In this document: piece after piece, positions 2,593-60,264 of the stretch
Numbering within the stretch: the first letter of the stretch is position 1
Layout: the number at the start of each line of letters is the position of its first letter
From: Rhodococcus sp. UNC23MFCrub1.1
Lineage (GTDB): Bacteria > Actinomycetota > Actinomycetes > Mycobacteriales > Mycobacteriaceae
Reading direction: 5' to 3'
NCBI RefSeq assembly: GCF_000686025.1
Contig: NZ_JMLQ01000001.1
Coordinates: 310,001-374,000 of the forward strand
DNA: 64,000 nucleotides
Program-made: the position numbers and the translations under genes
The notes under the pieces: model-generated
Told to the model about the DNA's origin: nothing
The model's database searches: none
Seen by the model: only the letters and a program-made list of their open reading frames with translations

Positions 2593-3417
2593 ATGCAGAA
2601 CGCGCAGGAAATGCAGCAGCTCAGGGGAACCCACGGCACCGTCGCCTACCGTTCCTGGCCGTCCACCACGCCGGGATTCGTCGCGCTGCTCGCGCACGGG
2701 TACGGCGAACACTCGGGTCGCTACGGCCACCTGGCGTCGACCCTGACGTCGGCCGGAGCGGCGGTGTACGCCCCCGACCATCACGGGCACGGGCGGTCGG
2801 ACGGGACGCCCGCCGAGATCACGGACGTGGACGGCATCGTCGCCGATCTGCACTCGATCGCGGACATCGCCCGCGGCGAGCACCCCGATCTACCGGTGAT
2901 GCTGCTGGGCCACTCGATGGGTGGTCTCATCGCCACGCGCTACGCGCAGACCCACCCCGGCGAGCTGGCGGCACTCGTGCTGTCCGGTCCGCTGGTCGGG
3001 CAGAACCCGGCCTTCTCGATGCTGCTGTCGATGGACGAGATCCCCGAGATCCCGATCGACCCGTCCGTGCTGTCCCGCGACCCCGAGGTCGGCGCCGCCT
3101 ACCAGGCGGACCCGCTGGTCTTCCACGGCCCCTTCGCGCGCGTCACCCTCGAGACCTTCACGGCCGCGGTGGAGACGGTGGCGTCCTCCGGCACTCTCGG
3201 CGACCAGCCCACGTTGTGGCTGCACGGCGGCGACGATCAGCTGGTGCCGCTGGAGACTACGACCGAGGCGATGCGCTCGCTGCGCGGCCCGTCGTTCGAG
3301 GAGAAGGTCTACCCCGGTGCGCGGCACGAGATCCTGAACGAGACCAACCGCAGCGAGGTCGAGTCGGACATCCTCGACTTCCTGGGCCGCGCGGGACTGC
3401 CGCTCACTCGCGACTGA
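2593..3417 (+). CDS. alpha/beta hydrolase, monoacylglycerol lipase-like
   Basis: Serine hydrolase of the monoacylglycerol lipase/lysophospholipase family (274 residues, normal length). The nucleophile elbow GHSMGG places the catalytic Ser at 108. The oxyanion-side motif HGYGEHSGRY lies at 35-44, and the catalytic His is in GARHEI near residue 252. These features fit the mycobacterial monoglyceride lipases (Rv0183 type). No signal peptide is visible, so it is cytosolic or peripheral. Its last 14 bases overlap the 3' end of the convergent nitrilase gene, leaving no room for a separate terminator. Substrate is inferred from the family. Confidence 0.85.
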   Translation: MQNAQEMQQLRGTHGTVAYRSWPSTTPGFVALLAHGYGEHSGRYGHLASTLTSAGAAVYAPDHHGHGRSDGTPAEITDVDGIVADLHSIADIARGEHPDLPVMLLGHSMGGLIATRYAQTHPGELAALVLSGPLVGQNPAFSMLLSMDEIPEIPIDPSVLSRDPEVGAAYQADPLVFHGPFARVTLETFTAAVETVASSGTLGDQPTLWLHGGDDQLVPLETTTEAMRSLRGPSFEEKVYPGARHEILNETNRSEVESDILDFLGRAGLPLTRD

Positions 3418-4207
3418 GGTCGCGGACGATCGACGAGTAGAGGCCGGGGCGGCGGTCCACCAGGTAGGGGTTGTCTCGATGGGCCGCCGCCACGACCTCG
3501 GTGTCCACCGTGCCGAGAATCAGGCCGGTCTCGTCGTCGAGTCGGTCGATCACCTCGGCGTCGGGGCCGACGATGCTGCTACGGCCGACGTAGGTGGTGG
3601 CGCGCTCGGTTCCGACGTGGTTGACGTACGCGACGTAGAGCTGGTTCTCCCATGCGCGCGTGCGGATGACGACGTCGGCCACGAATGTGAACGGCACCAT
3701 CTGCGCGGTGGGAACGAGCAGCGCGTGCGCGCCCGCGAGGGCCGCGGCTCGGACGTTCTCGGGGAACTCGACGTCGTAACAGATCATCAGACCGAGCCGT
3801 ACCCCGCGGAAGTCGACGACCGTCACCGAGTCGAGCCCGGGCGAGTACCACTCCCGGTCGAGCTCACCGTAGAGGTGCGACTTGCGGTGCTGCGCAATCA
3901 CACTGCCGTCCGCATCGACGAGTGCGACCGTGTTGTACACCGCTCCCGCCTCGGTCTCCGGCAGACCCACGAGCAGCGCGATGCCGCGGCGGCGCGCCAG
4001 TGCGCACACCTCGGAGAGAAGGTCCCGTGACGTCAGCTCAGCAAGGCGGTCACCGATGTCGTACCCGGTCACGAACATCTCCGGCGTGACCAGGAGGTCG
4101 GCTCCGCGCGCCAGAGCCGCCCCCGCGGCTCCGTCGAGTTCCGCGAGGTTGGCGTCGACGTCACCGGGTGACCCCGCCGTCTGCAGACCCGCCACGGTGA
4201 GCCGCAT
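3404..4207 (-). CDS. carbon-nitrogen hydrolase (nitrilase superfamily)
   Basis: A 267-residue nitrilase-superfamily amidase with a complete Glu-Lys-Cys triad: Glu43 in TPEMFVTGYD, Lys109 in HRKSHLYGE and Cys143 in MICYDVEFPE. Such enzymes hydrolyse linear or small cyclic amides, carbamoyl compounds or nitriles; the branch cannot be decided from sequence alone, though it resembles the aliphatic amidase/omega-amidase-like group. The ATG start at 4207 lies 6 bases after the glyA stop, so it is probably the last gene of a DUF885-glyA-nitrilase operon. It overlaps the convergent lipase gene by 14 bases. Confidence 0.85.
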   Translation of the reverse strand: MRLTVAGLQTAGSPGDVDANLAELDGAAGAALARGADLLVTPEMFVTGYDIGDRLAELTSRDLLSEVCALARRRGIALLVGLPETEAGAVYNTVALVDADGSVIAQHRKSHLYGELDREWYSPGLDSVTVVDFRGVRLGLMICYDVEFPENVRAAALAGAHALLVPTAQMVPFTFVADVVIRTRAWENQLYVAYVNHVGTERATTYVGRSSIVGPDAEVIDRLDDETGLILGTVDTEVVAAAHRDNPYLVDRRPGLYSSIVRDLSRE

Positions 4208-52229: not shown

Positions 52230-52253
52230 TTCTCCGCCCGCGCGACGTGCGCC

Positions 52254-52721
52254 TCAGAGCTGCTCGAGGTGGCGGTCGAGGGCGTCGAGTAGCGGAACCT
52301 GCCCGCTCAGCAGCCGACGCCGCGCGGACGTCCGATCACACCACTCCACGCGGTCGACCTCGGGAAACACCAGCCGTCGCCCCGATCTGGGTGGCCACTC
52401 CATCTCCACACTGTTGCTCACGGCGGTCGAGGGGTCGAGTTCGCCGCGCACGGCGAACGCACGAACCGACTTGGCTCTGGACTGCGCGACCGTGCCGAGA
52501 TCGATCCAGTCCCCGTCGGGCACCGGGGACCCCAGTTCCTCCGCGAACTCTCTGGCCGCCGCTGCGCGCGCATCCTCGGCGTCGGCGTCGTACTCGCCCT
52601 TCGGTATCGACCAGGCACCGGCTTCTCTGCGCGCCCAGAAGGGTCCGCCGGGATGCGCCAGCAGCACCTCCAGCTCGCCCCCACCCCCGCGGAACAGCAG
52701 CACACCGGCACTCGTCCTCAT
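52254..52721 (-). CDS. NUDIX hydrolase
   Basis: A 155-residue NUDIX pyrophosphatase. The NUDIX box [20 protein letters not shown] (about 42-61), followed by ELG, has the G-x5-E-x7-R-E-x2-E-E pattern. It resembles the short diadenosine-polyphosphate or NTP-cleaning group ([23 protein letters not shown] motif before the box). ATG 52721 gives the normal start [11 protein letters not shown]. Divergent from katA with a shared promoter region. Substrate unknown. Confidence 0.87.
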
Positions 52722-52742
52722 TCCAGGATTCTGTCGGATCAC

Positions 52743-52767
52743 GTTTTCTCGCGATCGTGTCGGGTAC
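52743..52767 (+). promoter_or_regulatory. SigF/SigB-like promoter of katA
   Basis: GTTT (52743-52746) N15 GGGTAC (52762-52767), about 50 bases before the katA ATG. Confidence 0.68.
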
Positions 52768-52819
52768 GCGGTCCGCTGCACGAAGCCGCCGTTCCACAGA
52801 GCAGTCAAGGAGCCGACAC

Positions 52820-54478
52820 ATGACAGACGTCGCGTCGCAGGGGTCGACACCGGCAGACGACCGGGACATCCTCACCAATCGTCAAGGGCATCCCGTCTAC
52901 GACAACCAGAACCAGCGCACCGTGGGCTCACGCGGTCCTGCCACCCTCGAGAACTACCAATTCCTCGAGAAGGTCAGCCATTTCGATCGCGAGCGCATCC
53001 CGGAGCGCGTCGTCCACGCCCGCGGAGCCGTCGCCTACGGCTATTTCGAGGCCACCGGGAAGTGGGGCGACGAACCCATCGAGAGGTACACCCGCGCGAA
53101 GCTGTTCGCCGAGGCCGGCAAGCGCACGGACCTCGCCGTCAGATTCTCGACCGTGATCGGCGGGCGCGATTCGTCCGAGGCCGCGCGTGACCCCCGCGGC
53201 TTCGCGATCAAGTTCTACACCGAGGACGGCAACTGGGACCTCGTCGGAAACAACCTGGGCGTCTTCTTCATCCGTGACGCCATCAAGTTCCCCGACGTCA
53301 TTCACTCGCTCAAGCCGGATCCCGTGACGTTCCGGCAGGAGCCCGCGCGCATCTTCGACTTCATGTCGCAGACACCCGAGGCGACCCACATGCTCGTGAA
53401 CCTGTTCTCCCCCCGCGGGATTCCGGCCAACTACCGGACGCAGCAGGGTTTCGGAGTGAACACCTACAAGTGGGTCGACGCCGAGGGCGAGACTCACCTG
53501 GTGAAGTACCACTGGATCCCGAAGGCGGGAGTCGCGTCGCTCACCGAGGCGGACGCCGCCGCGATCCAGGCGAACGATCTGGGCCATGCGAGCAAGGATC
53601 TGTACGAGCACATCGAGCGCGGCGACTTCCCCGAATGGGAACTGCGCGTGCAGATGATGAGCGACGACGAGCACCCAGAGCTGAACTTCGACCCGCTCGA
53701 CGACACCAAGGTGTGGCTGGAGAACGAGTTCCCGCCGAAGGTGGTGGGCCGCATGGTGCTGGACCGCAACGTCTCGAACCACTTCGCCGAGAACGAGCAG
53801 ATCTCGTTCGGCACCGGTGTGCTCGTCGACGGCCTGGACTTCTCCGACGACAAGATGCTGGTCGGCCGGACCTTCTCGTACTCGGACACCCAGCGTTACC
53901 GCGTGGGGCCGAACTACCTGCAGCTGCCCGTCAACCAGGCGAAGAACGCGCGGGTGTCCACGAACCAGCAGGGCGGCCAGATGCAGTACTCGGTGGACAA
54001 CACCGGCAGCAATCCGCACGTGAACTACGAGCCCTCCATCACGGGCGGCCTCCGCGAGGCCGAGTACCCGACCCACGACGAGCAGGGTCCGGAGATCCAC
54101 GGCCGCCTCACCCGCAAGCGGATCGATCGCACCAACGACTACGAGCAGGCCGGTCAGCGGTACCAGCTGATGGATCAGTGGGAGAAGGACGACCTCGTCG
54201 CAAATCTCGTCGCGAACATCTCGGAGGCGACGCGCGAGGTGCAGGAGCGGATGGTCTGGCACTTCTTCATGGCCGACGACGAACTCGGTGCCCGCGTGGG
54301 AGAGGGGCTGGGCATCTCGGCCGACGACGTCCGCGGACTCGAACCGCTCGCATCGCAGACCCTGTCGGAGGAGGAGGACCAGCGGCGCGCGAATCTCGGG
54401 AAGAACGGCCCCCGCGACGTCGCCGACCTGCAAATGACGCACTGCGTTCCGAACGAACGCGCGACGACTGCCGGATGA
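52820..54478 (+). CDS. katA: heme catalase (monofunctional)
   Basis: Decomposes hydrogen peroxide. The 552-residue protein is a small/medium-subunit clade catalase. The active-site His66 is in [13 protein letters not shown], the Asn region is GNWDLVGNN, and the heme-ligating Tyr lies in [17 protein letters not shown]. An N-terminal extension of about 15 residues precedes the core. ATG 52820 follows AAGGAG (52808-52813). It has a SigF-type promoter, and a manganese catalase gene lies just downstream on the other strand. Confidence 0.96.
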
Positions 54479-54572
54479 CGTCGCCATGACGCAGGTGTGG
54501 ACAGCGTCACTCCGCGGGGTTATCGTCGAAGACGCAAGCCGAACAGGTCGTAGGACGAACTCGAGGCAGGTG

Positions 54573-54677
54573 GTGCGTATCAACACGGTGACGACGAGAC
54601 ACGTGTTCATTCCGACGCGAGGACGATCACGCGGAGCCTGTTCTCCGGATCGACTCGCACCATCCACATCAACCTGA
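54573..54677 (+). CDS. possible small ORF before terminator
   Basis: A 34-codon GTG-started frame (start VRINTVTTRHVF) with a GGCAGG-like sequence upstream, ending 2 bases before a strong terminator hairpin. The 253-base gap between katA and the Mn-catalase gene otherwise holds nothing recognisable. It could be a small basic peptide or part of a small RNA; low confidence. Confidence 0.25.
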   Translation: MRINTVTTRHVFIPTRGRSRGACSPDRLAPSTST

Positions 54678-54679
54678 CA

Positions 54680-54710
54680 GAACCCCGGCGCCGTATCGGC
54701 GCCGGGGTTC
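54680..54710. terminator. bidirectional terminator katA region / Mn catalase
   Basis: A perfect 14-bp GC-rich stem (54680-54693 with 54697-54710) with a 3-base loop, followed on the plus strand by TTCGTCGTT. Confidence 0.9.
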
Positions 54711-54731
54711 TTCGTCGTTCGGGTCGGCCGA

Positions 54732-55643
54732 TCAGCCGGCGTCGGGGTCCAACGTCTCCTTGATCTTGCCCATGACGCCCTTCTCCGTGCCGAGGGCCGC
54801 GTTCGACGGTTCGCCGAGTCCGCCGTCGTAGGTGGCGTAGAGCTTCGGGTCCGGCGGCGGTCCGCTCTGCTTGTTCCCCAGCGGCTGCGGATCGGCGAGG
54901 AACCTGTTCTCGTGGCGGCCGTCCGGTGCGGTGCCGTGCGCCCACCGGCCCTTGTCCGACTCGGTGCCGTCCGACAGATGCCACAGTGTGCTCGCGTGCT
55001 CGTCGTACTCCTCGTCGAACAGGTCGTTCGGCGCCACCACACCCTCCAGACCGTCCGCCTGCAACTCCTCGATGGCCGCGAGCCACATGTTCTGGTGATA
55101 CGTGTCGCGGGCGAGGTTGAACTTCAGCATGTTCTTGACACCGGGATCGTCGGTCATGTGCCACAGGCGTGCGGTCTGCACGCGGCCCTGCGCCTCGGCC
55201 GCGACGTTGGCGCGGAAATCCGCCAGCAGGTTGCCGCTGGCGACGATGAAGCGGCCGTTCCACGGGACACCGTTGCTGTCGGCGAGCGTGGGTCCGCCAC
55301 CGGACACGATGGCCTGCTGCGGATCCATCCCGCCCAGCACCGCGGCGACGACGGGATCGGCGGCAGCGTTCTTGGTGGACTCGGTGGCCGGTGCGCCCTC
55401 GAGGAGCCGCGCGACCATGGTCGCGATCATCTCCACGTGACCGATCTCCTCGGTCGCGATGTCCATGATGAGGTCCTTGTACTTGCCTTTCATGCGACAG
55501 TTCCATCCCTGGAACAGGTACTGCATCGTGACGGTCATCTCGCCGTACGCGCCGCCGATCAACTCTTGCAGCTTTCGGGCGTAGACGGGATCCGGCTTCT
55601 CCGGCTTCACGTCGAACTGGAGGTGGTCGGTGTGACGGAACAT
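54732..55643 (-). CDS. manganese catalase
   Basis: Non-heme dimanganese catalase, 303 residues. The ferritin-like core has MQYLFQGWNCR (about 40-50), TEEIGHVEM (Glu and His ligands, about 66-74), and EAQGRVQTARLW plus DTYHQNMW further on; the C-terminal part is typical of KatN-type proteins. ATG 55643 gives the standard FRHTDHLQFDV start. A SigF-type promoter sits 48 bases upstream. Having it beside a heme catalase gives two independent peroxide sinks with different metals. Confidence 0.93.
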   Translation of the reverse strand: MFRHTDHLQFDVKPEKPDPVYARKLQELIGGAYGEMTVTMQYLFQGWNCRMKGKYKDLIMDIATEEIGHVEMIATMVARLLEGAPATESTKNAAADPVVAAVLGGMDPQQAIVSGGGPTLADSNGVPWNGRFIVASGNLLADFRANVAAEAQGRVQTARLWHMTDDPGVKNMLKFNLARDTYHQNMWLAAIEELQADGLEGVVAPNDLFDEEYDEHASTLWHLSDGTESDKGRWAHGTAPDGRHENRFLADPQPLGNKQSGPPPDPKLYATYDGGLGEPSNAALGTEKGVMGKIKETLDPDAG

Positions 55644-55690
55644 GAAGGCTCCTGACAGTGCTCGGGGGTCGTGCTCTTGTCGCGCCCCGG

Positions 55691-55715
55691 CTACCCGGAG
55701 GCGGACCCGACAAAC
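55691..55715 (-). promoter_or_regulatory. SigF/SigB-like promoter of manganese catalase
   Basis: Minus strand GTTT (55715-55712) N15 GGGTAG (55696-55691), 48 bases before the catalase ATG. Confidence 0.65.
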
Positions 55716-55775
55716 GACCCGGATCGCCGGATCGTGCGCGTGGGTAACGGCCCCGCGAACGGGTAACCGGCTGCG

Positions 55776-57122
55776 ATGAGCACCGACCTGAACGACCCTG
55801 CGGCCCCGGGCGACTCCCCCGGTCTGCGTCGCGCCGTCACCGGCAAACTCCTGTTCGTCTTCATCCTGGGTGATGTTCTCGGAGCGGGTATCTACGCACT
55901 CGTGGGCGAGATCGCCGGCGAGGTCGGCGGTGCCGTGTGGGTGCCGCTGCTGGTGGCACTCGCCATGGCCATGCTCACCGCGGCCTCGTACGCCGAGCTG
56001 GTGACCAAGTACCCGCGCGCAGGTGGTGCCGCCGTGTTCGCCGAGCGAGCCTTCGGACGGCCGGTGGTGTCGTTCCTCGTCGGGTTCTCGATGCTTGCGG
56101 CGGGTGTGACGAGCGCGGCCGGGCTGTCCGTCGCCTTCGCCGGTGACTATCTGGGCGCCTTCCTCGACGTCCCGACGGTTCCTGCCGCGCTGGTGTTCCT
56201 CGCCGTCGTCGCTCTCCTGAACGCGCGTGGCATCAAGGAGTCGATGCGGGCGAACGTGGTCATGACCGTCGTCGAGGTCAGCGGACTCGTCCTCGTCGTC
56301 GTCCTCGCCTGCATCGTGCTCGGTCGCGGCGACGGCGATCTCGGCCGCACCCTCGAGTTCACCGATGCCGTGAACCCTGCCGTGGCGGTCCTCGCGGCGG
56401 CACTGCTCGCCTTCTACTCGTTCGTGGGGTTCGAGACCTCGGCCAACATGGCGGAGGAGGTCCGGGACGTGCACCGCGTCTACCCTCGCGCGCTCTTCCT
56501 CTCGCTGGCGACGGCCGGTGCGGTCTACGTCGCGGTCGGACTCGCGGTGAGCGCGGTGGTGCCCGCGAGCGACCTCGCGGACACCTCGGCGCCCCTGCTC
56601 GCCGTCGTCTCGGCGGCCGACGTCGGTGTCCCCGACAGGCTCTTCGGACTCGTGGCGTTGATCGCCGTGGCCAACGGCGCCCTGCTGACCATGATCATGG
56701 CCAGCCGACTCACCTACGGGATGGCCGGACAGCGACTACTGCCCGCTGTCGCGGGCCGGGTGTTGCCACGTCGGCAGACTCCCTGGGTGGCCATCGTCGC
56801 GACCACGGTGGTGGCGATGATTCTCGCGGCCACCGGGACCGTCGCAGCGCTCGCGGAGACCGTCGTCCTGCTGCTCCTGATCGTGTTCGTCAGCACCAAC
56901 CTCGCCGTGCTGGTGCTGCGCAAGGACCAGGTAAACCACCCGCACTTCCGCACCCCGGTGATCCTTCCGGTGCTCGCTCTGATCAGCTGCGGCGTGCTCG
57001 CGACGCAGCAGACCGCGCAGACGTGGCTGCGTGCCGGCGTGCTGCTCATGGTCGGCGGCGTGCTCTACGCGGCGATGCGGTGGACACGGAGTTTGAGAAG
57101 TCCCGAAATCGTCAACACGTGA
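55776..57122 (+). CDS. APC superfamily amino acid permease
   Basis: A 448-residue transporter with 12 predicted helices of the amino acid-polyamine-organocation type: GDVLGAGIYALVGEIAG near 32-48 is the TM1 unwound substrate motif, and FYSFVGFETSANMAEEV near 210-226 is the TM6 equivalent. Substrate not predictable. Two GGGTAA sequences (55742-55747, 55761-55766) sit just before the ATG but lack GTTT partners at the right distance. Confidence 0.86.
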   Translation: MSTDLNDPAAPGDSPGLRRAVTGKLLFVFILGDVLGAGIYALVGEIAGEVGGAVWVPLLVALAMAMLTAASYAELVTKYPRAGGAAVFAERAFGRPVVSFLVGFSMLAAGVTSAAGLSVAFAGDYLGAFLDVPTVPAALVFLAVVALLNARGIKESMRANVVMTVVEVSGLVLVVVLACIVLGRGDGDLGRTLEFTDAVNPAVAVLAAALLAFYSFVGFETSANMAEEVRDVHRVYPRALFLSLATAGAVYVAVGLAVSAVVPASDLADTSAPLLAVVSAADVGVPDRLFGLVALIAVANGALLTMIMASRLTYGMAGQRLLPAVAGRVLPRRQTPWVAIVATTVVAMILAATGTVAALAETVVLLLLIVFVSTNLAVLVLRKDQVNHPHFRTPVILPVLALISCGVLATQQTAQTWLRAGVLLMVGGVLYAAMRWTRSLRSPEIVNT

Positions 57123-57160
57123 CCTGTCTCCTGTAGAACGGGGACGTTCGATGTGTGTCC

Positions 57161-57180
57161 GACGCCGGAATTCCGGCGTC
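57161..57180. promoter_or_regulatory. perfect 20-bp palindrome (operator or terminator)
   Basis: GACGCCGGAA and its exact complement TTCCGGCGTC meet with no spacer. It lies between the permease stop (57122) and the repeat-peptide gene (57207), so it could terminate the permease (8-bp stem with AATT loop) or be a repressor site for the cassette. No promoter box could be fixed. Confidence 0.5.
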
Positions 57181-57206
57181 CGGTCGTGACGACTGAAAGG
57201 TAGACG

Positions 57207-57464
57207 ATGGCTATCAACGACGACGACATCACCACTTCCGGAGCAGCAGGCGGCGAAGGCCCCGCCGACGGCGGCTCCAACCCGAACGGTCACGACGGCG
57301 GCGCCGACGGCACCGCGTCCAGCACGGAGGGCCCCGCGGACGGCGGCTCGAATCCGGGTGGACACGACGGCGGCGCGGACGGCTCCGCGGCCAGCGGCGA
57401 GGGCCCGGCCGACGGCGGCTCGAACCCCGACGGCCACGACGGCGGTGCGGACGGTACGGCTTGA
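57207..57464 (+). CDS. Gly/Asp-rich repeat peptide, candidate modified-peptide precursor
   Basis: An 85-residue protein. Residues 1-16 (MAINDDDITTSGAAGG) look like a leader; the rest is three tandem copies of a 24-residue unit (17-40, 41-64, 65-85, the last cut to 21) with consensus EGPADGGSNP-x-GHDGGADG. Copies differ mainly at x (Asn, Gly, Asp) and in the Ser/Ala/Thr tail. It has no Cys, Arg, Lys or aromatic residue. The ribosome-binding site GAAAGG (57195-57200) is good. It overlaps the JmjC/cupin oxygenase gene by TTGA, implying coupled translation. A precursor of a hydroxylated peptide is my inference; a structural or Ca-binding role is an alternative. Confidence 0.75.
   Translation: MAINDDDITTSGAAGGEGPADGGSNPNGHDGGADGTASSTEGPADGGSNPGGHDGGADGSAASGEGPADGGSNPDGHDGGADGTA
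57255..57461 (+). repeat. 72-bp tandem repeat inside peptide gene (2.9 copies)
   Basis: Units 57255-57326, 57327-57398 and 57399-57461 stay in frame. Synonymous differences between copies show the protein repeat is being kept rather than freshly duplicated. Confidence 0.85.
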
Positions 57465-58720
57465 GCCGACCGACCGGTGACGAGCGCGGACCGGGAGACC
57501 GGTCCGCGCTGCGTCGTCTTCTGAGCATCGAGCCCCGCGCCTTCGCCGAGGACCACTGGGGTCGCGCGCCGCTCCTGACGCGCGCGGTCGATCTACCCAC
57601 TCCGTTCACCGATCTGCTGTCGACGGACGCCGTCGACGAGCTGGTGTCCGAACGCGGCGTGCGCACTCCGTTCGCCCGGATGGCCCGGAACGGCGCACTG
57701 ACCGACCGCAGTCAGTTCACCGATTCGGGTGGCTTCGGGGCCGAGGTGACCGACCAGCTCGACTCCGCCGGAATTCTGGCGGCCTTCGCGGACGGCCACA
57801 CCCTCGTCCTGCAGGGACTCCATCGACTGTGGCCTCCCCTCATCCACTTCACCGGCGACCTGGTCGCCGATCTCGGCCACCCGGTGCAGGTAAACTCGTA
57901 CATCACCCCCGCGTCCTCGCGGGGATTCGATCCCCACTACGACGTGCACGACGTCTTCGTCCTCCAGATCGCCGGCGAGAAGCGGTGGATCCTGCACCCC
58001 CCGGTGCACGAGCATCCGCTGTCGAACCAGCCGTGGTCGGATCGCCGGGACGCCGTCGCCGCCATGGCGCGCACGGACCCGACCCTCGACGTCGTTCTGC
58101 GCGAAGGTGATTCGCTGTACGTTCCGAGGGGCTGGATCCATTCCGCCGAGGCCCTGGGTGACACCTCGATCCATCTGACCGTCGGAATGTCGGCCTTCAC
58201 CCGACACGACCTCCTGCATCACGTGCTGGGCACCCTCGCGGACGACGCGAGCTTCCGGGCCCCGCTGCCCGTGGGGCTCGATCTGACCGATCCGGACGCC
58301 GTCGTACCGCACGTGCGCGCGCTGATCGCAGATCTGACCGCGACCCTCGCCGACACCGACGGCCGCGACGGTCGAGCGCGGACGGCGGCAGAGCGTGTCG
58401 GCCGTCGCTTCGTCGAGGTCACGCGGCCGGCCCCGGTGCGTCCTCTCGAGACCGTCCGCACGATGGCCGGCCTGACCGCGGCCACCGTGGTGACGTGGCG
58501 ATCCGGGCTCGCCGCGCGGGTGACGCAGTCGCCCGAGTCGGTCGCCGTGACGACGCGGACCAAGACGGTCACGTTGCCCTCGATCGCGGCGGACGCCGTT
58601 CGGCAGCTGCACAGCGGAAAAGACTGTGCTGTCGGAGATCTCACCGGTCTCGATGATCAGGACGCGATCGTCGTGGTGCGTCGTCTGCTCCGCGAGGGTC
58701 TCGTCGTCGCCCGATCGTGA
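57461..58720 (+). CDS. JmjC/cupin-4 oxygenase (ribosomal-oxygenase-like)
   Basis: A 419-residue Fe(II)/2-oxoglutarate oxygenase of the ROXA/NO66/MINA53 type (Cupin_4). Iron ligands are His159 and Asp161 (DPHYDVHD) and His227 (VPRGWIHSA); QVNSYITP near 143-150 and GEKRW with Lys174 fit the 2-oxoglutarate pocket. Relatives hydroxylate Arg or His side chains of ribosomal proteins. A winged-helix-like C-terminal part follows (about 320-419). It begins with a rare TTG that overlaps the stop of the repeat-peptide gene, and ends overlapping the ferredoxin-like gene (GTGA). This context suggests the peptide, which is rich in Asn, Asp and His, is the substrate; that is inference. Confidence 0.87.
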   Translation: MSRPTGDERGPGDRSALRRLLSIEPRAFAEDHWGRAPLLTRAVDLPTPFTDLLSTDAVDELVSERGVRTPFARMARNGALTDRSQFTDSGGFGAEVTDQLDSAGILAAFADGHTLVLQGLHRLWPPLIHFTGDLVADLGHPVQVNSYITPASSRGFDPHYDVHDVFVLQIAGEKRWILHPPVHEHPLSNQPWSDRRDAVAAMARTDPTLDVVLREGDSLYVPRGWIHSAEALGDTSIHLTVGMSAFTRHDLLHHVLGTLADDASFRAPLPVGLDLTDPDAVVPHVRALIADLTATLADTDGRDGRARTAAERVGRRFVEVTRPAPVRPLETVRTMAGLTAATVVTWRSGLAARVTQSPESVAVTTRTKTVTLPSIAADAVRQLHSGKDCAVGDLTGLDDQDAIVVVRRLLREGLVVARS

Positions 58721-59631
58721 CGACTCAGGTGAGCACCACCGCGGCGTGGCGCCCGTGCAGCGACAACGCTCGTGATCGGGGAGACACCTTGGCGGGAAGC
58801 GGTTCTCGCGGAGAACGATGGTTCCTCGTCGAGCTCGCGGGAAGCTGGGGCCCGTCGGCGTTCCTCGATTCCCCGTCCGTCCTCGATCCCGTACTGGGTA
58901 GTGCGCTCGTGCGCCGCATCGAGAGTGCCGGATTCCGCCCCCTCGCAGTCCGGGAGCCCGGCCGTCGCCGAGGCCGAGGCAGGTGGCGGTGGGCGTCGGT
59001 GGACGCACGGCCGGGGCACGAGAGCGTGCACCGGGGCGAGGTGTCCGACGCGGCCGATCTGCTCGACGTCCCGCTCGACGGATCGTCGGGAATCGCGTCG
59101 ACGGAAACCATCGTGGCCGTGTGCACCCACGGCAGGCACGACCGCTGTTGCGCCGTCCGCGGTCGCACGATCCTCGCTCCGGCCGTGGCGGCGTACCCCG
59201 GCGAGGTGTGGGAGTGCTCGCACCTCGGTGGCGATCGATTCGCCGGCACGATGATCGTCCTGCCGCACGGTCTCTACTACGGCAACGTCGACGACGCGGA
59301 CGTCGTCCGCATCCTGCGTCGCCACCACGACGGACTCGTCACCCCGGAGTTCCTGCGTGGCCGCAGTGCGCTCTCGGGGGCCGTGCAGGTGGCCCAGCAC
59401 GCCGCACGAACCGTCCTGCAGGACTTCGCCATCGACACCCTGCATCCCCTGTCGGAGGCTCCCGGCCCGGACGGTCGGCGACACGTCCTCCTCGACCACC
59501 ACGGGGACACCGTCGAGGTGGTCCTCCAGGAGTCTCGGTCGGCGCCGATCCTCACCACGTGCCACGCCCGCGTCGCCGGGCCGGTGCGCACCCACGAGGT
59601 CGTGTCCGTCCGCCCGTCTCGGCCCCGCTGA
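58717..59631 (+). CDS. sucrase/ferredoxin-like Fe-S protein
   Basis: A 304-residue protein of the sucrase ferredoxin-like (thioredoxin-fold 2Fe-2S) family. The ligand signature is CTHGRHDRCC (Cys136, 144, 145) followed by WECSHLGGDRF (Cys167, His169). Relatives are poorly characterised; the fold suggests electron transfer. GTG 58717 overlaps the oxygenase stop. It could reduce the oxygenase iron or act on the product, but this is untested. Confidence 0.85.
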   Translation: MTTQVSTTAAWRPCSDNARDRGDTLAGSGSRGERWFLVELAGSWGPSAFLDSPSVLDPVLGSALVRRIESAGFRPLAVREPGRRRGRGRWRWASVDARPGHESVHRGEVSDAADLLDVPLDGSSGIASTETIVAVCTHGRHDRCCAVRGRTILAPAVAAYPGEVWECSHLGGDRFAGTMIVLPHGLYYGNVDDADVVRILRRHHDGLVTPEFLRGRSALSGAVQVAQHAARTVLQDFAIDTLHPLSEAPGPDGRRHVLLDHHGDTVEVVLQESRSAPILTTCHARVAGPVRTHEVVSVRPSRPR

Positions 59632-59682
59632 GCGACCACTACTCTGGACCGGAGGCCGGTCGTACATCCGGAAGGGACACGT

Positions 59683-60264
59683 GTGGAACTCGTAGTACTG
59701 CTTGATGAGGACGGCCGTGCCATCGGCACCCACGACAAGGCCACTGTGCATCACGACGCCACACCGCTGCACCTGGCGTTCTCGAGCTACGTGATCAACC
59801 GCGAGCGCGAGGTCCTGGTGACACAGCGGGCGCACGACAAGCGCACCTGGCCCGGAATCTGGACCAACACGTGCTGCGGACACCCCGCGCCGGGTGAGCG
59901 TCTCGACTCCGCGGTTCTGCGGCGCCTCGATCACGAACTGGGTATCGGTGCGGACAGCGCGGCTCCGGTGCTCCCGTCGTTCCGGTACCGCGCCGTGATG
60001 GACAACGGCGTGGTCGAGTACGAGATCTGCCCGGTGTTCCTCGTCCTGCACGACGACAGGACGGTCGATCCGCGACCGGACGAGGTGGCCGACTACCGCT
60101 GGGAACCGTGGAACGAGTTCGTCGCGACCGTGTTGGCGGGCGAGAGCGATCTGTCGCCGTGGTGTCAGGACCAGGTCCGTCAGCTGCACGCCCTGGGTTC
60201 CGACCCTCTGGCGTGGCCCACCGGCGGCACCGAGTCCCTCCCACCCGCGGCACGCGTCGCGTGA
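59683..60264 (+). CDS. idi: isopentenyl-diphosphate delta-isomerase (type 1)
   Basis: Interconverts IPP and DMAPP for isoprenoid synthesis. The 193-residue NUDIX-fold protein has the catalytic Cys65 in TNTCCGHP, HLAFSSYV before it, and a YEICPVF segment near 113-119 (Glu114). GTG 59683 is the start. It has a 4-base overlap (GTGA) with the phospholipase D gene, an unusual partnership. Confidence 0.95.
   Translation: MELVVLLDEDGRAIGTHDKATVHHDATPLHLAFSSYVINREREVLVTQRAHDKRTWPGIWTNTCCGHPAPGERLDSAVLRRLDHELGIGADSAAPVLPSFRYRAVMDNGVVEYEICPVFLVLHDDRTVDPRPDEVADYRWEPWNEFVATVLAGESDLSPWCQDQVRQLHALGSDPLAWPTGGTESLPPAARVA

Follow-up and report, generated by a model that had tools for sequence, protein, structure and literature searches.

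A cassette of three overlapping genes in Rhodococcus sp. UNC23MFCrub1.1 pairs a short, aspartate-rich repeat peptide with a JmjC-domain oxygenase, followed by a Suc_Fer-like protein. It lies on the forward strand within a 64,000-nucleotide stretch (hereafter the window; contig NZ_JMLQ01000001.1, positions 310,001 to 374,000). Peptide and oxygenase are tightly coupled, and sequence comparisons point to a widespread, apparently undescribed kind of modified bacterial peptide in scattered Actinomycetota. We propose that the oxygenase binds the DDDITT leader of the peptide via its C-terminal domain, which resembles the recognition elements (RREs) of ribosomally synthesized and post-translationally modified peptides (RiPPs), and that the repeat aspartates become hydroxylated, with the beta carbon as the most probable site; this reading we favor with moderate confidence.

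A repeat peptide and a JmjC oxygenase form a conserved pair

The precursor open reading frame (ORF; 57207 to 57464, ATG start, stop codon at 57462 to 57464) encodes 85 residues. A 16-residue leader-like start, MAINDDDITTSGAAGG (57207 to 57254), contains the DDDIT-type motif common to most of the precursors discussed below, and is followed by a repeat core (57255 to 57461) in a 24-residue period, with three copies of EGPADGGSNPxGHDGGADG[ST]A; the core contains 10 Asp residues. A preliminary description of this DNA had spoken of three 24-residue repeats; the three copies and their period stand, but the third is only 21 residues long because the peptide ends there. The leader-like start and the residue bias that it reported (no Cys, Lys, Arg, Phe, Trp or Tyr) are borne out by the translation of the ORF. 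Next come the JmjC oxygenase (57461 to 58720, TTG start, 419 residues) and the Suc_Fer-like protein (58717 to 59631, GTG start, 304 residues), and the ORF coordinates agree with the earlier claim that successive genes share 4 bases, TTGA and then GTGA. The same 4-base overlap between peptide and oxygenase is implied by the coordinates of seven near relatives (L091, L092, L094-L098).

Co-occurrence of peptide and oxygenase had been set beforehand as the test of the pairing. Among 121 genomes of the family, the JmjC enzyme was present in 33 at E<=1e-60, and the remaining 88 had neither enzyme nor peptide at the thresholds used. A profile of the peptide (E<=1e-10) matched 31 family genomes, all of them among the 33 and each time directly 5' of the enzyme. 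As to the two apparent exceptions (G497 and G510), one carries a GGAD-type precursor and the other shows only the last residues of the peptide at a contig end; the repeat peptide thus directly precedes the JmjC gene in 33/33 family genomes that have it (31 by profile, 2 by reading). The profile also matched 24 of 197 genomes sampled from the class, and all 24 encode a JmjC relative immediately after the peptide in the same orientation, the gap measuring -52 to 282 bases.

Named genomes were scanned with the JmjC alignment, and the best 80 of 553 confirmed loci were taken. The genera represented include Rhodococcus, Rhodococcoides, Mycobacterium, Gordonia, Dietzia, Cellulomonas, Leifsonia, Agromyces, Curtobacterium, Kribbella, Modestobacter, Micromonospora and Pseudonocardia. 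An upstream repeat ORF was found in 78 of the 80, a few of them looking cut or frameshifted, and the two loci without it have just 64 and 123 bases upstream of the JmjC match. At least two copies of the repeat motif occur in 78/80 loci against 35/1774 control stretches, and at least four copies in 77/80 against 0/1774. The precursor genes of three loci from Mycolicibacterium/Mycobacterium (L141, L145, L169) appear frameshifted or cut, and in seven of the 33 family genomes (G424, G451, G461, G485, G491, G500, G513) the JmjC match spans one stop codon, which may mark either the gene end or a broken gene.

Though without a match in Pfam, NCBIfam or PADLOC, the window peptide has 170 homologues at E<=0.001 among 5.8 billion proteins. 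By a strict pattern, 102 of the 120 homologues fetched have two repeats, 12 have three and six have one. Between species the peptide is under purifying selection (pN/pS of 0.15 against R. corynebacterioides). The same holds between the repeats of the window peptide, whose 19-residue units show, in pairwise comparison, 7-8 synonymous changes (~14.5 sites) as opposed to 1-2 nonsynonymous ones (~42 sites). Homologues and selection together indicate that the peptide is more than a chance ORF.

These observations bear on the simplest alternative, an ordinary ribosomal oxygenase that happens to lie next to an unrelated low-complexity ORF. While the fold and sequence of the enzyme are indeed nearest to those of NO66, MINA53 and YcfD, this alternative is already contradicted by the controlled co-occurrence (78/80 and 33/33), by the selection on the peptide, and by a scattered distribution in the family (33/121) that is unlike that of a housekeeping enzyme; we consider it highly improbable. 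Hydroxylation of a ribosomal protein is likewise argued against, because of this scattered distribution and the fixed peptide partner.

Asp-repeat precursors with a shared leader motif

The partner of the oxygenase extends beyond the type found in the window. In the class sample, 50 of the 62 genomes with JmjC were examined, namely, the 30 closest loci and 20 weaker relatives. In all 30 closest loci the peptide is of the GGAD type, and some forms are close to pure (GGAD)n, the core of the L057 precursor consisting of almost nothing else. The weaker relatives are more diverse, with GGAD in three, DADGTD/DADSTD-like Asp repeats or stretches in five, a short peptide of the type MDPIEVEVEDLAEVTSRDITAGGDNDGTDSSSDFI in four, an NDDDL...DPDGSDG peptide in two, a repeat-free Asp-rich ORF in one, and no clear candidate in five. 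The ORF before one such relative, L178 (G143), looks TfuA-like. Elsewhere in Actinomycetota the partner consists of other Asp repeats, e.g., DADGTDGDATD, mostly with a similar leader motif.

In the phylum sample, the JmjC alignment matched 36/246 genomes, of which 30 loci were fetched and six matching genomes were left out. Twenty-one of the 30 were read (L210 and L177 are one locus); the remaining nine belong to genomes already in the class sample, including G081 (cf. L171). An Asp-rich partner is present in 20/20 of the loci read that have enough upstream sequence. All 20 have, in one frame or another, a 30-residue stretch with at least 11 Asp, against 0.34% of 2630 control stretches, with a cutoff chosen after the data had been seen and controls drawn from the flanks of the named loci. 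For L217 the top Asp-rich segment falls in another ORF; the locus still has a repeated Asp-rich peptide whose leader is similar. The type of core follows the JmjC tree of 122 rows, with 7 changes where shuffling gives a mean of 27.9; in this tree L168 and L170 were called GGAD by rank (their precursors lie beyond the contig end) and L217 was called DxTD though its repeat differs.

The leader motif can be written approximately as D-(D/E)-D-(I/M)-(T/E)-T after a hydrophobic residue. Its strict pattern occurs in 108 of 129 segments, a set from which eight loci had been dropped beforehand and which includes only 8 of the 20 weaker class relatives, those with the precursor in view. The rest are 12 near-misses by eye, seven segments without the motif and two wrong ORF picks (L214, L217). 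Asp, Gly and Ala are present in all 127 placeable cores, a figure that for Asp holds partly by construction, as motifs containing Asp had served to select the ORFs. His is found in 101/127 and Asn in 80/127.

A ribosomal precursor with leader and core thus stands beside a candidate modifying enzyme, with seven of the 129 segments lacking the leader motif. The absence of Cys from the window peptide and from all but 3 of the 127 segments sets these precursors apart from those of lanthipeptides or other Cys-based RiPPs. A RiPP-type system, as the preliminary description had put forward, fits because most members have a conserved leader, the repeat core is variable, the oxygenase is dedicated and its C-terminal domain is RRE-like by fold; co-occurrence also supports a precursor with a dedicated enzyme. 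The label "RiPP" is nevertheless used here provisionally. Full-text literature searches with repeat strings and words, in a limited collection of papers, retrieved no description of this precursor class, in line with the earlier statement that no described RiPP class has this set of genes.

The oxygenase and its predicted target

The second protein of the cassette contains a JmjC_2 domain (PF08007, Pfam E 4.7e-28), and H159, D161, H227 and K174 are invariant in an alignment of 43 sequences. Among solved structures NO66 is its nearest relative both by sequence and by fold. It combines the JmjC domain, the HxD...H triad and the C-terminal winged helix (58433 to 58717) that are typical of the ribosomal oxygenase (ROX) hydroxylases. 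Pfam, the NO66-like fold and the intact metal-site residues all uphold the earlier assignment to this family. The fold matches of the C-terminal domain include, after the ROX enzymes, the RREs of TbiB1, PbtF, PqqD, ThcOx and TruD. We postulate that this winged-helix domain grips the leader of the precursor and that the repeat peptide is the substrate, with the oxygenase acting repeatedly along the repeats and hydroxylating their Asp residues at the beta carbon.

Two distant JmjC relatives are found on plasmids. One, from Streptomyces clavuligerus (L223), has 5' of it a 48-residue Asp-rich peptide (3287-3433) with IADNDPSDPP and IADPDPFDP; the other, from Pseudanabaena (L222), has a gene for a LanM lanthipeptide synthetase ~2.8 kb away. 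Plasmid-borne copies were sought and rejected, every one of the 25 records being below 60% identity.

Instead of Asp, the target could be the His or Asn residue in the repeats, the kind of hydroxylation that NO66, MINA53 and FIH carry out; His and Asn had been named beside Asp in the preliminary description. The nearest solved relatives are His hydroxylases, and in the named set together with the window (six truncated or odd precursors dropped) His is found in 70/73 and Asn in 67/73 precursors. Across the wider family, however, His is lacking in 26/127 cores and Asn in 47/127; L057 and several DADGTD-type precursors (e.g., L201, L219) have neither in the core, and their enzymes belong to the same tree. 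Either residue is unlikely as a general target because both are missing from many cores, and we regard this proposal as improbable.

Another kind of oxidation would act on the same repeats by desaturating or decarboxylating Asp, or by hydroxylating the alpha carbon of Gly and thereby cutting the chain at each DG. Consistent with this, Asp is followed by Gly in 997/1357 cases in the segments with the leader motif, and Gly is present in 127/127 cores. Yet NO66, MINA53 and YcfD, the known ROX enzymes, are side-chain hydroxylases, and in DxTD cores Asp often precedes Ala, Ser or Thr. The likelihood of such chemistry seems to us quite low.

A third view is that the peptide is an acidic partner and not a substrate, e.g., a subunit, iron-binding or inhibitory, by which the oxygenase is loaded or regulated. 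Asp-rich chains can bind metals, the number of repeats and the core sequence vary freely, and no conserved peptidase or exporter was found, all of which are compatible with such a role. Against this, a leader motif that is kept while the core changes, together with the RRE-like domain, fits substrate recognition better, and we think a partner role unlikely. Under the proposal of Asp hydroxylation, the mature product may remain intracellular, since no conserved leader peptidase or exporter was found beside the cassette, and we speculate that its hydroxyaspartate chain would coordinate metal ions.

The Suc_Fer-like protein and the genomic neighborhood

The third protein is Suc_Fer-like (PF06999) with an E value of 1.8e-18 and 67.8 bits against a gathering cutoff of 34.9, and C136, H138, H141, C144, C145 and H169 are invariant in its alignment of 34 sequences. 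Pfam score and conserved Cys/His residues place it in the family, from which an iron-sulfur (Fe-S) cluster is predicted. It has no relative in the PDB by sequence. By tblastn, the protein is encoded in 68 of the 80 named loci, in 66 cases no more than 400 bases from where the JmjC gene is expected to end. By profile, it was found in 22/30 close class loci, 10/20 weaker ones (with L188 and L189 divergent) and 18/21 phylum loci. Its presence across the named, class and phylum loci makes it an old partner of the cassette. On the other hand, several lineages, R. corynebacterioides among them, lack it near the cassette, and hence it is not essential to the peptide/JmjC pair. An Fe-S protein had been described as the third member; family and frequent association are confirmed, but the protein is dispensable. 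One possibility is that it supplies electrons to the oxygenase or keeps its iron reduced.

Clustering of the ORFs around 81 loci (-7 to +9 kb) showed that, JmjC and Suc_Fer apart, every cluster is confined to 8 loci or fewer, with a filter that omits ORFs of fewer than 100 codons and that caught Suc_Fer in 52 loci as opposed to 68 by tblastn. No exporter, leader peptidase or permease is conserved beside the cassette in these 81 loci; such functions could be encoded elsewhere. The neighboring APC (amino acid-polyamine-organocation) permease, suggested earlier as a possible exporter, is absent from the conserved clusters and was rejected as a member of the cassette. Imiditides, the aspartimide-containing RiPPs, are defined by a gene for a protein isoaspartate methyltransferase (PIMT)-like O-methyltransferase beside the precursor; around the precursors studied here, JmjC and Suc_Fer are the sole genes with wide conservation, the small clusters being unannotated and no search aimed at methyltransferases having been made. 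A defense system was also considered and rejected, PADLOC giving no match for the three proteins, as was an RNA element, there being no Rfam match at the gathering score in 56900 to 59900.

Upstream of the peptide gene, a putative promoter-like element, GTTTG-N14-CGTCAAC (57091 to 57116, forward strand), lies within the 3' end of the permease gene, and resembles a promoter of the extracytoplasmic function (ECF) sigma factor type. The pattern GTTTR-N14-CGTCAAY occurs a single time in the genome, at this position, and GTTT-N15-CGTCAA was recognized by eye in eight of nine upstream regions (the window and L091-L098). A perfect 20-base palindrome (~57158 to 57177) is situated just 5' of the peptide gene. 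A shared upstream operator was rejected, no 8-mer exceeding shuffles and the palindrome being absent from the 24 other upstream regions compared. Two catalases are encoded within 5 kb upstream of the cassette (52247 to 56474), a heme catalase (PF00199) on the forward strand and a manganese catalase (PF05067) on the reverse strand.

Relationship to known systems and implications

The ROX JmjC hydroxylases NO66, MINA53 and YcfD are the nearest to the window enzyme in sequence and resemble it in fold, including the C-terminal winged helix, in the HxD...H motif and in the lysine K174. Their solved members are named as hydroxylases of the ribosomal proteins L8, L27A and L16, in contrast to the peptide substrate predicted here, and to our knowledge they are not encoded together with a repeat peptide. 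The Suc_Fer-like protein shares the PF06999 family and the invariant Cys/His residues with thioredoxin-like [2Fe-2S] proteins such as yeast Apd1 and Aim32, and we assume a link with Apd1.

RiPP pathways offer further parallels. PesHI is a multinuclear nonheme iron-dependent oxidative enzyme (MNIO) with its partner. Peptidyl L-threo-3-hydroxyaspartate is formed post-translationally in the Pes RiPP and nitrilobacillins, which thus share the beta-hydroxyaspartate proposed here, though, in the passages of that source drawn on, it is made by PesHI enzymes at Asp21 and not by a JmjC enzyme on repeats (PMC13060819). Hydroxylases that are JmjC proteins or related to them (BipG, BpmG, PbsQ) likewise take part in the ribosomal pathways to the biphenomycin RiPPs (PMC12707348, PMC12257519), BipG being a JmjC protein reported as an ornithine hydroxylase (PMC12707348). 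Judging from the published descriptions as excerpted, and not from the sequence of BipG, these clusters differ in their AFHAFRF-type core and their MNIO, B12-dependent radical S-adenosylmethionine (B12-rSAM) enzyme and arginase genes, as against the Asp-repeat core and Suc_Fer of the window. RRE domains fused to JmjC (PF08007) have been noted in fish and algae, with the closest bacterial homologues in RiPP-like contexts; they have the same Pfam domain and RRE-like fold as the window enzyme, and the portions of that report used here name no Asp-repeat precursor (PMC12710340).

Extending these parallels, we can envisage a phylum-wide group of RiPPs in which cores of Asp with Gly, Ala, Ser or Thr are converted by RRE-fused JmjC enzymes to chains of beta-hydroxyaspartate. 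These would be gene-encoded metal-binding polymers, a ribosomal counterpart of the hydroxyaspartate siderophores, with Suc_Fer handling the bound iron; as a whole, this wider picture is doubtful. If the proposed hydroxylation of the repeats is correct, the cassette would represent a new RiPP-like class, one notable for the simplicity of its core (Asp among small-residue spacers) and for an oxygenase gene that adjoins the gene of the likely substrate. Being small, it is directly testable in Escherichia coli, and it would link the eukaryotic-type ribosomal oxygenases to peptide natural products.
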